The position numbers were made by a program, and so were the translations under genes. Below, piece after piece: positions 41,100 through 44,737 of a stretch of DNA of 44,737 nt. Each line of letters opens with the position of its first letter. Within the stretch, counting starts at the first letter, position 1. Location of the stretch: positions 1 through 44,737 of the forward strand of contig CAMBFO010000010.1 in assembly GCA_945865675.1 (NCBI GenBank), read 5' to 3'. Under the pieces are notes generated by a model. It did not search any database and was not told where the DNA came from. It saw only the letters and a program-made list of their open reading frames with translations. This stretch comes from Comamonas sp. lk. GTDB taxonomy: Bacteria > Pseudomonadota > Gammaproteobacteria > Burkholderiales > Burkholderiaceae_C.

Positions 41100-42731
41100 A
41101 TGTCGCACCAAAAAATACTGATACTGGACTTCGGTTCGCAAGTTACCCAATTGATTGCCCGCCGCGTGCGCGAGGCGCATGTGTTTTGCGAGGTGCATCC
41201 TTGCGATGTCAGCGAGGACTGGCTGCGCGCCTATGCACGCGATGGCAATTTGAAGGGCATCATTCTTTCGGGTAGCCACGCCAGCGCCTATGAGGATGAC
41301 ACCGACAAAGCGCCGCAATTGGTGTTTGAACTGGGTATCCCGGTTCTGGGAATTTGCTATGGCATGCAAACCATGGCCCAGCAACTGGGCGGGCGGGTAC
41401 AAAGCGGCACTATGCGCGAATTCGGCCATGCCGATGTGCGCGCCCATGGCCACACACAGTTGCTAGACGGCATACAAGACTACGCTACCCCCATGGGCCA
41501 CGGCATGCTGCAAGTCTGGATGAGCCATGGCGACAAGGTGACAGATTTGCCGCATGGCTTCAAGCTAATGGCCAGCACCGATAGCTGTCCGATTGCTGGC
41601 ATGGCCGATGAAGAACGTCACTTTTACGGTGTGCAGTTTCACCCGGAAGTCACCCACACCAAGCGCGGCGCGGCGATTTTGGAGCGCTTTTTGCTCGATA
41701 TCTGTGGCACCAAGGCGGATTGGATCATGGGGGACTACATCTCGGAAGCGGTCGAGAAAATCCGCGCCCAAGTGGGCACTGAAGAGGTGATATTGGGCTT
41801 GTCCGGCGGGGTGGATTCCTCGGTGGCTGCCGCCTTGATTCACCGCGCCATTGGCGATCAGCTCACCTGCGTTTTTGTGGATCATGGACTGCTGCGCCTT
41901 AATGAAGGCGACGCGGTGATGGAAATGTTTGCAGGCAAACTGCACGCCAAAGTGATCCGCGTGGATGCGGCGGATTTGTTTTTGGGCAAGTTAGCAGGTG
42001 TGTCCGAGCCAGAGGCCAAGCGCAAGATTATTGGTGGCTTGTTTGTCGATGTTTTCAAGGCCGAAGCCGCCAAACTCAAAGCTGGGCAGGGCGCCGCTGG
42101 CACCGTCGTGAAAGGCGCGACCTTTTTGGCCCAAGGCACGATCTACCCGGACGTGATTGAGTCGGGCGGCGCAAAAAGCAAAAAAGCGGTCACGATTAAA
42201 AGCCACCACAACGTGGGTGGCTTGCCGGAACAATTGGGATTAAAACTGCTCGAGCCCTTGCGCGATTTGTTCAAAGACGAAGTGCGTGAATTGGGCGTGG
42301 CGCTGGGCCTGCCCGCGGCCATGGTCTATCGCCACCCCTTCCCCGGCCCAGGCTTGGGCGTGCGCATTTTGGGGGAAGTGAAAAAAGAATACGCCGACCT
42401 GCTACGCCGCGCCGATGCCATCTTCATCGAAGAACTGCGCAATTTCCGTGACGACGACAGCGGTAAAAACTGGTACGAACTGACCAGCCAGGCCTTTGCC
42501 GTGTTCCTGCCGGTGAAAAGCGTGGGCGTGATGGGCGATGGCCGCACCTACGACTATGTGGTGGCGCTGCGCGCGGTACAAACCACCGACTTCATGACTG
42601 CCGACTGGGCTGAATTGCCTTACGCGCTGTTGAAAAAAGTCTCCGGCCGCATCATCAATGAAGTGCGTGGAATTAACCGCGTGACTTACGACGTATCGAG
42701 TAAGCCGCCGGCTACTATTGAGTGGGAATGA
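41100..42731 (+). CDS. guaA: GMP synthase (glutamine-hydrolysing)
   Basis: A 543-residue enzyme that aminates XMP to GMP. The glutamine amidotransferase domain has Cys86 in GICYGMQ and the His-Glu pair in [11 protein letters not shown]. The ATP pyrophosphatase domain has the PP-loop [13 protein letters not shown], and the C-terminal dimerisation domain carries [17 protein letters not shown] and ends PPATIEWE. It is a little longer than E. coli GuaA (525), mostly in the middle of the ATPase part. The 3' end is intact and overlaps one of two near-identical sites that bracket a small A+T-rich insert downstream (see findings). Base composition changes right after its stop. Confidence 0.97.
42720..42731 (+). 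repeat. Candidate attachment site att1 (3' end of guaA)
   Basis: The last 12 bases of guaA, GAGTGGGAATGA, encoding Glu-Trp-Glu-stop. A copy with one mismatch lies at 43488-43499. The 3' end of guaA is a known target for tyrosine-recombinase genomic islands, which rebuild the gene end on integration; att identity here is inferred from the repeat. Confidence 0.6.
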
Positions 42732-42796
42732 CGGGAATTTTTAAGTGATTGATTGGTAAAGATTTTTGATTTTTGAGTGTCAATCTAAGAAATAAC

Positions 42797-42854
42797 TAAG
42801 TCATTGATTTTATTGAGTTCTGAAATTTTAGTTACACATAAACTTACACACTGG
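42797..42854 (+). repeat. Left copy of a diverged direct repeat flanking the DUF2306 gene
   Basis: In order: TAAGTCATTGATT (42797-42809), GAAATTT (42822-42828), GTTACACA (42831-42838) and CTTACACACTGG (42843-42854). The same elements occur in the same order at 43350-43432, with different spacing. It lies just before the ribosome-binding site of the DUF2306 gene. It could be arm-type recombinase sites or a duplicated regulatory region. Confidence 0.6.
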
Positions 42855-42895
42855 TGACACTACTCGAAATCATAGTTACGCAATAGAGGAAATAG

Positions 42896-43309
42896 ATGAA
42901 TTTTAGTTTGTTGTTTGATACATCTGCTTTTATACAAATACACTTTTTTTTCGCAATAAGTGCCTTTTTAATTGGTGCTTTACAGCTACTAGGAAGAAAA
43001 GGAACAACTCCACATAAAGTATTGGGTAGATTGTGGGTTGCGATGATGTTAATCATTTGCGTAACTTCTTTTTGGATAAAAGAGTTAATGCCAGGTGGTG
43101 TTTTTTGGGGTTACTCGCCTATCCATTTGTTGAGCATTTTTGTGCTTTTCCAAATTACTTTAGGCGTTTATTTTGCTAGAGTTGGTAACATCATAGGACA
43201 TAAAAAATGTATGACTTACACATACATTGGCGGTTTGATAATCGCAGGTGCCTTTACTTTTTACCCTGACAGGCTTCTTTATAAAGTTTTTTTATCAACC
43301 TATTCTTAA
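42896..43309 (+). CDS. DUF2306-type small membrane protein
   Basis: A 137-residue membrane protein with four predicted helices: residues 10-32 (FIQIHFFFAISAFLIGALQLLG region), 46-62 (LWVAMMLIICVTSFWI), 76-95 and 105-122. The sequence His-X-X-X-A then GRKGTTPHKVLGRLWVAMM and the later HLLSIFVLFQITLGVYFARV match the DUF2306 (YozB-like) pattern; function unknown. AGAGGA lies 5 bases before the ATG. The gene is clearly richer in A+T than guaA upstream. It is the only gene between the two guaA-like att sites. Confidence 0.8.
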   Translation: MNFSLLFDTSAFIQIHFFFAISAFLIGALQLLGRKGTTPHKVLGRLWVAMMLIICVTSFWIKELMPGGVFWGYSPIHLLSIFVLFQITLGVYFARVGNIIGHKKCMTYTYIGGLIIAGAFTFYPDRLLYKVFLSTYS

Positions 43310-43327
43310 ATTTTTAAAGGAGCCGCA

Positions 43328-43430
43328 AAGTGTGTAACTTCAATTTGCTTAAGTCGTTGATTAAGAAGAGAATTAGGAAATGAAATTTGCTAACAAATTC
43401 TGTCGCGACTTACACAAAAGTTACACACTT
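43328..43430 (+). repeat. Two-block imperfect inverted repeat downstream of the DUF2306 gene
   Basis: Outer stem of 13 perfect bases, AAGTGTGTAACTT (43328-43340) with its complement at 43418-43430. Inner stem of 7 bases, TAAGTCG (43350-43356) with CGACTTA (43406-43412). They are separated by unpaired 9 and 5 bases, with a 49-base loop. It begins 18 bases after the gene stop and overlaps the right copy of the direct repeat. It resembles a folded recombination site more than a terminator: no T run follows. Confidence 0.55.
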
Positions 43431-43432
43431 GG
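43350..43432 (+). repeat. Right copy of the diverged direct repeat flanking the DUF2306 gene
   Basis: TAAGTCGTTGATT (43350-43362), GAAATTT (43382-43388), CTTACACA (43409-43416) and GTTACACACTTGG (43420-43432), in the same order as the left copy at 42797-42854. The middle spacing is longer by about 25 bases. It ends 55 bases before the second att-like site. Confidence 0.6.
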
Positions 43433-43487
43433 TTTTGGATTGCTTGAAACCCGCATAAACACTGAGTTTTTTGACAGAGTAACTACG

Positions 43488-43499
43488 GAGTGGGAGTGA
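43488..43499 (+). repeat. Candidate attachment site att2 (displaced guaA 3' end)
   Basis: GAGTGGGAGTGA, 11 of 12 bases identical to the guaA end at 42720-42731 and 768 bases downstream. The preceding codons read RVTTEWE then stop, compared with PPATIEWE then stop at the true guaA terminus, so it looks like a second guaA C-terminal end without its gene. Confidence 0.6.
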
Positions 43500-43593
43500 C
43501 TAAAGTTAAAATTTATGTCTTTTCTGTTTACTAATCCAAATATTATTGTCTAGTTGCTCCGCATTTAAATCCGCCCGTTATAACGTTTACTCA

Positions 43594-44547
43594 ATGATAA
43601 ATTTAGGATTCTGGTTGGCTTTGTCAATCATCTCATTGATTAGTACAAGTTTATATGCTCAGCATAGTTCGGAATCAGTTGAGCTGGCTAAAACCATCCC
43701 AATTGCTGATGTTCATATGCATACCTACTTTCGTGGCGGGCCCACAAGTTCTGCAATCTTGGAGCAAATGGACAAAAACAATGTGAGATGGGGAGGTGCC
43801 GTAGGTGACTATAGAGATGATGTTGCAGATAAATTGAAAGTACGTTATATCCCTGCCGTTGGGCAAATGGAGTTCATGGAAGTCTTCTTTAGCCGTGGCG
43901 TTTCTGGACTTGTAGATGATGAAAATTTGACTTTTAAACGCTTGTTCAAAAATGCAGAAGAGCAGTTTTCCAACGGAGCGATCAAAGGATTTGGCGAGCT
44001 TCACACGAATAATAGTTTAAGCGGTCCAATAAACATTAGGCGAACGATCAGGACAGATAGCCCGGCAGTCCGAAAGATGTATTCCATTGCAAACAAATAC
44101 AATGGATTTGTTCAGCTACATTCACAACATGACGAAAACTTTACCATTGATATTTTGAAGTTATCTGCTGAATTTCCAAATACTATTACTGTTTTGTCAC
44201 ATTGCTTGCCATTATCTCAGCCTAAAGATCTTGCTAACTTGTTCAGTAAGAGAAAGAATATTGTTTGTGAATTATCTGCACAGGGCTCTACGCACAATAA
44301 AATTCAAGGCATCAATCGTACAGCTCGCGTATTTGACGACAATGGATTAAAACAAGCTTGGAAAAACCTAATTGAAACGTACCCTGATCAAATTATGATT
44401 GGTACAGATGCTTGTTGTGGTTGGTTCAACTCATATGGCGATATGGTTGCAGAGATTCGCAATAATCTTCTACCTTATCTTTCACCTGAATTAATGGAGA
44501 AGGTTGCTTATAGAAATGCAGTTCGAATTTTTAAGCTTAACGAATAA
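43594..44547 (+). CDS. Secreted amidohydrolase-family metal-dependent hydrolase
   Basis: A 317-residue precursor with a Sec signal peptide (MINLGFWLALSIISLISTSL, cut after YAQ or LYA). The mature protein looks like a TIM-barrel metal hydrolase of the amidohydrolase-2 type: the HxH metal site is ADVHMHTYF, a barrel strand with His is VQLHSQHDENF, another is TVLSHCLPL, and the Asp-bearing strand is IMIGTDACCGW. The start is taken at the ATG at 43594, since the upstream TTG of the same frame gives no signal peptide. It is strongly A+T-rich with codon use unlike guaA, so it is probably acquired. The substrate is unknown. An IS30-type element lies just downstream. Confidence 0.78.
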   Translation: MINLGFWLALSIISLISTSLYAQHSSESVELAKTIPIADVHMHTYFRGGPTSSAILEQMDKNNVRWGGAVGDYRDDVADKLKVRYIPAVGQMEFMEVFFSRGVSGLVDDENLTFKRLFKNAEEQFSNGAIKGFGELHTNNSLSGPINIRRTIRTDSPAVRKMYSIANKYNGFVQLHSQHDENFTIDILKLSAEFPNTITVLSHCLPLSQPKDLANLFSKRKNIVCELSAQGSTHNKIQGINRTARVFDDNGLKQAWKNLIETYPDQIMIGTDACCGWFNSYGDMVAEIRNNLLPYLSPELMEKVAYRNAVRIFKLNE

Positions 44548-44588
44548 ATCCTGACTAAATTATTTCTAAATTAAATTCTTTGCGGAAT

Positions 44589-44614
44589 TGGCGGATTCAA
44601 GTTCGAAGCGCAAC
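44589..44614 (-). repeat. Probable terminal inverted repeat of an IS30-family element
   Basis: The first 26 bases inside the element, starting TGGCGGATTCAAG, overlap the stop codon of the transposase and look like an IS30-type end. The other end lies outside the window, so the match could not be tested. Confidence 0.45.
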
Positions 44615-44737
44615 GCGGTTTAAAGATTGATGGAACACCTCTGAAGGTGTTTTGAATCCAAGTCTTTTCCTCGGTCGGTTATTTAATCTGTTTTGAATCA
44701 TTGTAATTTCCTCCTCATCAACCGTATTCATCGATCT
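44597..44737 (-). CDS. IS30-family transposase, C-terminal end, partial
   Basis: Read on the minus strand the last 46 residues are open to the window edge and contain NNRPRKRLGFKTPSEVF, followed by HQSLNRVALRT and a stop. N-RPRK-LG-KTP-EVF is the C-terminal hallmark of IS30 transposases, just after the last catalytic Glu of the DDE domain. The N-terminal DNA-binding part and the DDE residues are beyond the window. It is not in the list of longer reading frames because only the end is present. It ends the foreign, A+T-rich stretch visible here. Confidence 0.85.
   Translation of the reverse strand, partial: RSMNTVDEEEITMIQNRLNNRPRKRLGFKTPSEVFHQSLNRVALRT

Follow-up and report, generated by a model that had tools for sequence, protein, structure and literature searches.

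A probable non-autonomous mini-island of 768 bp, carrying a single DUF2306 gene, at the 3' end of guaA in Comamonas sp. lk

Single-gene acquisitions without a visible vehicle are often met in bacterial genomes. Islands integrated at guaA are already known, as are integrase-less elements flanked by attachment (att) sites, the CIMEs. In GIsul2, the integrase excises and integrates a sub-unit that lies between GAGTGGGA cores and encodes no integrase of its own (PMC9376610); as the integrase is on the same element, that experiment is not a pure test of action in trans. In the same work, DNA whose att sites had been deleted was still inserted on rare occasions, at a core reduced to TGGG. CIMEs have kept their att sites, have lost the genes for integration and transfer and often lie in tandem with other elements (PMC5704250, PMC7563491). 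In a survey of S. salivarius, gene-carrying CIMEs measured 1.2-13 kb and gene-less microCIMEs 130-220 bp (PMC7563491).

The window (the whole stretch of DNA analysed, 44,737 nucleotides) is the entire contig C10 of the 169-contig draft genome of Comamonas sp. lk, which is 88.9% complete, so that its right edge is an assembly limit. The last 12 bases of guaA, GAGTGGGAATGA, were found to recur 768 bp downstream as GAGTGGGAGTGA, as the initial annotation had reported (Table 1). The surroundings of the two cores agree at 16 of 19 bases (42714-42732 against 43482-43500), and as extension to 21 bases gains no match, the agreement of 16 in 21 given earlier holds. The right copy reads T-T-E-W-E-stop, and between the cores there is one gene, of the DUF2306 family, and no integrase among the frames, both as first described. 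The fall in G+C at the guaA stop, from about 0.57 to 0.335, was also borne out. The second core is no composition edge, as G+C is 0.38 over 43500-44560 and the DNA remains A+T-rich to the contig end, where the cut transposase is presumably IS30-like.

Table 1 Features of the guaA locus in the window, with positions numbered from its first base. Offsets are in bases from the core.
Feature	Position	Strand	Remark
guaA (GMP synthase)	41100..42731	+	543 aa; last 12 bases form the left attachment core; Pfam GMP_synt_C, E 2e-42
Left core GAGTGGGAATGA (attL side)	42720..42731	+	end of guaA; BAL199 homology starts at its TGGGA
Perfect IHF-consensus site WATCAANNNNTTR	42742..42754	-	offset 22 from first base of core; similar in other guaA islands
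Conserved island leader (model R1)	42788..42881	+	whole or partial integrase behind it in 10 of 15 other genomes of the order matched
Second perfect IHF-consensus site	42797..42809	-	offset 77 from core
Left arm-type pair TTACACA-TAAAC-TTACACA	42832..42850	+	offset 112 from core
DUF2306 membrane-protein gene	42896..43309	+	137 aa; occupies the integrase position of related islands
Inverted arm-type site TGTGTAA	43331..43337	-	offset -157 from right core; -156 in G067, -158 in G397, -141 in G288
Third perfect IHF-consensus site	43350..43362	-	inside the unit near its right end
Right arm-type pair TTACACA-AAAG-TTACACA	43410..43427	+	78 bases before right core
Terminator-like hairpin and T run	43447..43472	+	read by eye; also at right end of G067
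TAACTAC, partly conserved	43480..43486	+	directly precedes right core
Right core GAGTGGGAGTGA (attR side)	43488..43499	+	BAL199 homology ends here
Amidohydro_2 gene	43546..44547	+	in A+T-rich DNA past the unit
C-terminal end of a transposase	44600..44737	-	cut by contig end; from translation

The stretch 42720-43499 is probably a mini-island unable to move by itself, which belongs to a family of islands that integrate at guaA and depends on a guaA integrase from elsewhere. The exact pattern GAGTGGGARTGA occurs at two places in the whole draft genome (2,716,626 bases), both at this locus; with two mismatches allowed, four occurrences were found in the window against 4.04 expected, no excess over chance. 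Any 12-mer can recur in a genome, and conservation at the 3' end of guaA is sufficient to allow homologous recombination on the left, from which it could be argued that the second core is a chance 12-mer and the DUF2306 gene an ordinary acquisition by homologous recombination at guaA. This is very improbable, as the pattern has no third occurrence in 2.7 Mb, homology with the copy in Alpha proteobacterium BAL199 stops at both cores, and arm and IHF sites stand at similar distances from the core in other islands.

A scan of the 137-aa protein against the species-genome collection gave six loci (L010-L015). The unit in L010, from an uncultured Burkholderiales MAG, is identical at 742 of 744 bases (99.7%), and that in BAL199 (L011) at 736 of 741 (99.3%). 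Window and L010 share 70.5% identity in guaA and 74.4% in guaB, which, set against the likeness of the unit, points to a recent transfer between distant hosts. The BAL199 alignment covers 42723-43499, starting within the left core and stopping where the right core ends. Neither flank is in common with the window; the BAL199 flanks are foreign, guaA does not adjoin the copy on the left, and the left junction reads CATTGGGAATGA. The BAL199 right core bears an IS-like element that has ends of 24 bases and a target duplication of 10 bases (GGGAGTGAGG), which suggests that the unit has been resident there for some time. Against the mini-island reading, window and BAL199 agree at only 17 of 23 aligned bases over the 24 bp that precede the right core, and the L010 copy lacks the last 24 bp and is joined to another GAGTGGGA. 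The window from 43500 to 44737 had no match in L010-L041 except the own-genome locus, and what the three hosts share upstream is guaA itself, in two of them only.

On the strength of the uniqueness of GAGTGGGARTGA in the own genome and of the BAL199 boundaries, a chance repeat was rejected. Recurrence from core to core at 99.3-99.7% in two genomes with different downstream flanks bears out the proposal of a tiny integrase-less unit targeted to guaA. Its expected presence next to guaA elsewhere was found in L010; the BAL199 copy, not beside guaA on its left, does not conform. Contamination or mis-binning might be invoked for the cross-class copy, given that L010 belongs to a MAG, its unit ending about 320 bp from its contig end, and that the window comes from a 169-contig draft and BAL199 is a draft as well; we regard this as extremely improbable, since the three copies each stand in different flanks and the BAL199 right core bears the IS with its 10-base duplication.

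Diverged copies of the gene lie behind guaA in L012 (86.9% identity over the gene) and L013 (84.0%), and L014 and L015 are remote relatives (41 and 44%). No second core was detectable at L012 or at L013, whose contig ends soon after the gene. A DUF2306 region lacking a second site is what the initial annotation had held to count against its own proposal; both of these copies are diverged, and they are read here as older, decayed copies.

Behind the resident guaA of L010 (4611-5836) stands a repeat of the unit's left end, over its first 60 bases. Between the repeated left ends are a PIN-domain gene, an 85-aa frame with a Phd/YefM match below the cut-off and, before the DUF2306 unit, some 260 bases from the 3' end of a foreign guaA, to which L012 is the closest of four tested (75%). 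This arrangement is read as a nested or tandem insertion.

A plasmid or phage vehicle was considered and rejected. The DNA from 42732 to 43540 matched none of 72,556 plasmids, and neither a relative of the unit nor an exact left end was found in the IMG/VR contigs. Six plasmid records matched the 137-aa protein, at 36-44% identity.

Sixteen regions of genomes of the genus were fetched around exact core matches, and guaA was present in eight. All eight have a single uninterrupted GAGTGGGA core within the 1.2-8 kb fetched, as predicted for relatives without the insert, in what is a non-random sample because the regions were selected by the exact core. In these eight, G+C is 0.49-0.61 in the first 500 bases after the core and the island leader is absent. 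The whole unit was found in one of 100 genus genomes, with short partial matches only in seven others. Another member of the genus, G017, carries a guaA island with an integrase that runs to the contig end.

In L032 and L033, guaA is followed by a metal-dependent-hydrolase-like gene and, in L032, by PNPOx-like and then tadA-like genes (all named by eye). A search of the own genome with the native guaA-downstream DNA of L033 gave nothing. A protein search placed a tadA-like frame (72% identity) at the start of contig C47 of the own genome, which begins with about 750 bases of G+C 0.40-0.43 containing a hydrolase-like frame, followed by a PNPOx-like gene and then the tadA-like frame. This gene order suggests one insertion with C10 on one side and C47 on the other, in which case the insertion is longer than the unit and has the second core inside it; the second core seems to lie within a longer A+T-rich insertion.

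Perfect copies of WATCAANNNNTTR, which we take to be the IHF consensus, number four in the window, three of them inside the unit and one elsewhere. The arm-type motif TTACACA occurs seven times, six inside the unit and once elsewhere. None of 1000 dinucleotide shuffles of the unit reached the observed TTACACA count, the IHF count or the two arm pairs. Judged from these motifs, the unit appears to have an attP-like anatomy of core, IHF sites and paired arm sites. Against the mini-island reading, the core-proximal left arm of other islands (+52) was not recognisable in the window. The segment 42720-42812 is 74-76% alike to L124:1501-1586 and L125:202-287 of genus genomes, neither of which adjoins guaA; with the +52 arm not recognisable, this opening part of the unit, of some 90 bases, may have another origin.

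A profile of the leader (R1, made from seven sequences, two of these from one genome) matched 16 of 399 genomes of the order. Directly upstream was guaA in 13 of the 16 and, outside the genomes used to build the model, in nine of 11, the exceptions being G123 and G232. In the first 200 bases of the left ends of 14 loci, the window included, perfect IHF-consensus sites occur only at positions 23-24 or 78-81 from the core (17 sites, at 12 of the 14 loci). The control kilobases beside these left ends contained one such site, whose position identifies it as the right-end site of the window itself. A full-length tyrosine integrase is encoded directly behind the leader in G067, G078, G385 and G037, and a partial, truncated or cut one in G044, G081, G145, G250, G415 and G266, that is, an integrase of one family in ten of the 16 matched genomes; tblastn found no integrase of the G067 type in the own genome, G054, G123, G140, G434 or G232. 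Outside the R1 set, an integrase of this family was present behind guaA in G017 (cut), G578 (full-length) and G582 (part). The Pfam match of the G067-type integrase is PF00589, and comparison of the G067 protein with solved-structure sequences found nothing. The islands occur in several families of Burkholderiales.

Two loci of this set have a different arrangement. In L025 (contig C5 of G054) two leaders stand in tandem behind guaA, the first leading to a desaturase-like gene (by eye) and the second to an apparent short integrase start fused to another frame, with a degenerate core. In G123 (L134:733-885) core and leader occur without guaA upstream and with no integrase match in the 19.9 kb fetched, which is read as a secondary-site insertion or a relic.

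The right ends of the window and of G067 align, with the inverted arm site, arm pair, hairpin and T run, GAGTAACTA and core. A right-end profile (R2, four sequences) gave nine matches at E <= 0.001 in the 399 genomes of the order (33 at E <= 0.1, mostly weak) and eight at E <= 0.01 in 187 genomes of the family of G288. The right core was on one contig with guaA in six of the nine order and two of the eight family matches, and in the remainder guaA was not beside the right end on the stretch examined. In each of G288, G078, G397 and G439, which were found by R2 and had no part in its making, a single contig bears both guaA and a second core, and the right arm pair stands at -77 or -78.

Seven core-to-core insertions at guaA were measured, namely 768 bp in the window, 1,396 in G288, 1,802 in G439, 4,178 in G250 (right core the variant GGGTGGGA), 5,219 in G397, 14,468 in G078 and 15,892 in G067. 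The two longest keep a full-length integrase and G250 a fragment; no match to the G067-type integrase was obtained by tblastn in the insertions of the window, G288, G439 and G397. The right arm pair stands at -76 to -78 in six of the seven, that of G250 differing by one base and being missed by the pattern. The left arm is at +52 in G067, G439 and G397 and at +112 in the window, with none matched in G078, G288 and G250. A point against the mini-island reading is that the leader model is weak or absent at the left ends of G288 (17.4 bits), G439 (12.4 bits) and G397 (none). The insertions of G288 and G439 are two further guaA units below 2 kb without that integrase and with other cargo: one 304-aa frame without a Pfam match above the cut-off in the former, and a polysaccharide pyruvyl transferase with a 65-aa frame lacking a Pfam match in the latter. 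The 5.2 kb insertion of G397 (L135, 107-5326) has no match to that integrase; its cargo consists of a carbamoyltransferase, a DUF6641 gene, a 451-aa frame lacking a Pfam match and a further 132-aa frame.

The cargo of the unit under study belongs to DUF2306 (PF10067; E 9.2e-17, 62 bits against a curated cut-off of 31.6). In an alignment of six sequences H16, H40, H77 and H102 are invariant, and the four histidines alternate between both ends of four predicted helices; we presume, speculatively, that they would suit a bis-histidine di-haem bundle of the b561 kind. The structure model was of low confidence (pLDDT 69.1), and a fold search with it gave no match at E <= 0.001.

The unit shares with the guaA islands the insertion at the 3' end with duplicated GAGTGGGA core and ends homologous to those of integrase-bearing islands, and it departs from them in having no integrase gene of its own between the cores. 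An integrase family profile (A3, built from four sequences), which scores 754 bits in G067, reached at most 45 bits in the own genome and those of L010-L013. The weak matches numbered two in the own genome (best E 1.1e-5, 24.5 bits), three in the L010 genome and seven in the L011 genome, and the genomes of L012 and L013 had none. No integrase of the G067 family was found in these five carrier genomes, all drafts, three of which gave weak generic matches; an integrase may have been missed, as most of the genomes are drafts and the own genome is 88.9% complete. Three carriers hold other, generic tyrosine-recombinase-like proteins. The own genome has three PF00589 matches, of which tblastn at E 0.01 aligned none with the G067 integrase. 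These proteins were considered as an own-genome helper and set aside, being unlike the G067 integrase and weak to the family model. No sequence link between the G067-type integrase and the GIsul2 Int emerged, the comparison yielding only two plasmid matches of 23-26% identity.

A decayed island of the CIME kind would account for the locus if internal deletion of a large island had left the ends and one gene, moved only as a cis passenger of full islands in tandem. Truncated integrases in several guaA islands (G250, G415, G266), the commonness of CIMEs that retain att sites (PMC5704250, PMC7563491), the A+T-rich DNA that persists past the second core and the repeated left ends behind guaA in L010 and G054 are in keeping with this. 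Against it, the units of three hosts are 99.3-99.7% alike, the DNA after them is not and upstream they share guaA alone, in two hosts; nor did the searched sequence of the hosts contain a G067-family integrase. This explanation is considered unlikely. The initial annotation had left the choice between a passenger mobilised in trans and the leftover of a deletion; the passenger fits better, and a leftover of a deletion in this genome less well, because the integrase-less form is common to unrelated hosts.

Movement as a non-autonomous mini-island would proceed as follows. The unit keeps both island ends, with core, IHF sites and paired arm sites, and has the DUF2306 gene where the integrase normally sits; as both ends are kept, a circle formed from it would have an attP. 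A guaA-type tyrosine integrase of another island, acting in trans or by tandem insertion, would excise the unit at its cores, presumably with IHF bound at the consensus sites, and after passage between cells the circular form would insert into the GAGTGGGA of another guaA, where the core would restore the gene end (TIEWE-stop). Several other right cores, preceded by ACTATT, also read TIEWE-stop. The restorable GuaA C-terminus, together with the ends, supports site-specific excision and insertion by the guaA integrase of another island.

In comparison with described systems, the locus resembles GIsul2 with CR2-sul2 in the insertion at the 3' end of guaA, the core GAGTGGGA and an integrase-less, att-bounded sub-unit, and the reduced TGGG core is comparable to the TGGGA at the BAL199 left junction (PMC9376610). 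CR2-sul2 differs in lying inside an integrase-coding island and in carrying the ISCR2 gene and resistance cargo, whereas the present unit has 768 bp and one gene. Like a CIME, it retains attL and attR and is without recombination and transfer genes; it is unlike the CIMEs of the S. salivarius survey in combining 768 bp with a gene and in having near-identical copies in two bacterial classes. It shares with integron cassettes and CALIN arrays the small size and a tyrosine recombinase encoded elsewhere, which for the unit is the probable situation, and with MITEs the nature of a short, non-autonomous derivative using the enzyme of a larger relative (PMC11389934). It differs from integron cassettes in being bounded by guaA-type cores with island-attP arm sites and IHF-consensus sites and in inserting at guaA, and from MITEs in its site-specific, tyrosine-recombinase anatomy in place of a transposase and terminal inverted repeats.

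In the open-licence literature, mostly judged by title and the start of the abstract, no paper was found on sub-kilobase guaA units or on guaA with Polynucleobacter, and a paper on Methylophilaceae islands (PMC10872708) makes no mention of guaA in its main text. A gene-carrying, sub-kilobase unit with attP-like anatomy that is near-identical in two classes looks new, as do the additional small units that are built along similar lines and carry different cargo.

The unit indicates the size to which a tyrosine-recombinase island can shrink while still recurring, core to core, among unrelated hosts, and it provides a searchable anatomy for such vehicles, with a core, IHF-consensus sites near +22 and +77, and arm pairs at +52 or +112 and at about -78. 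As a tentative proposal, guaA might serve an integron-like system that lacks attC as its point of insertion. Compact units holding one gene or a few, and each provided with an attP of core, IHF sites and arm pairs, would then form a pool exchanged among Burkholderiales and as far as Alphaproteobacteria by the integrases of other islands. The three smallest units carry a predicted helical membrane protein, a 304-aa protein lacking a Pfam match above the cut-off, and a polysaccharide pyruvyl transferase accompanied by a small second frame, which may be a sign that small traits of the cell surface or of metabolism are exchanged in this way.
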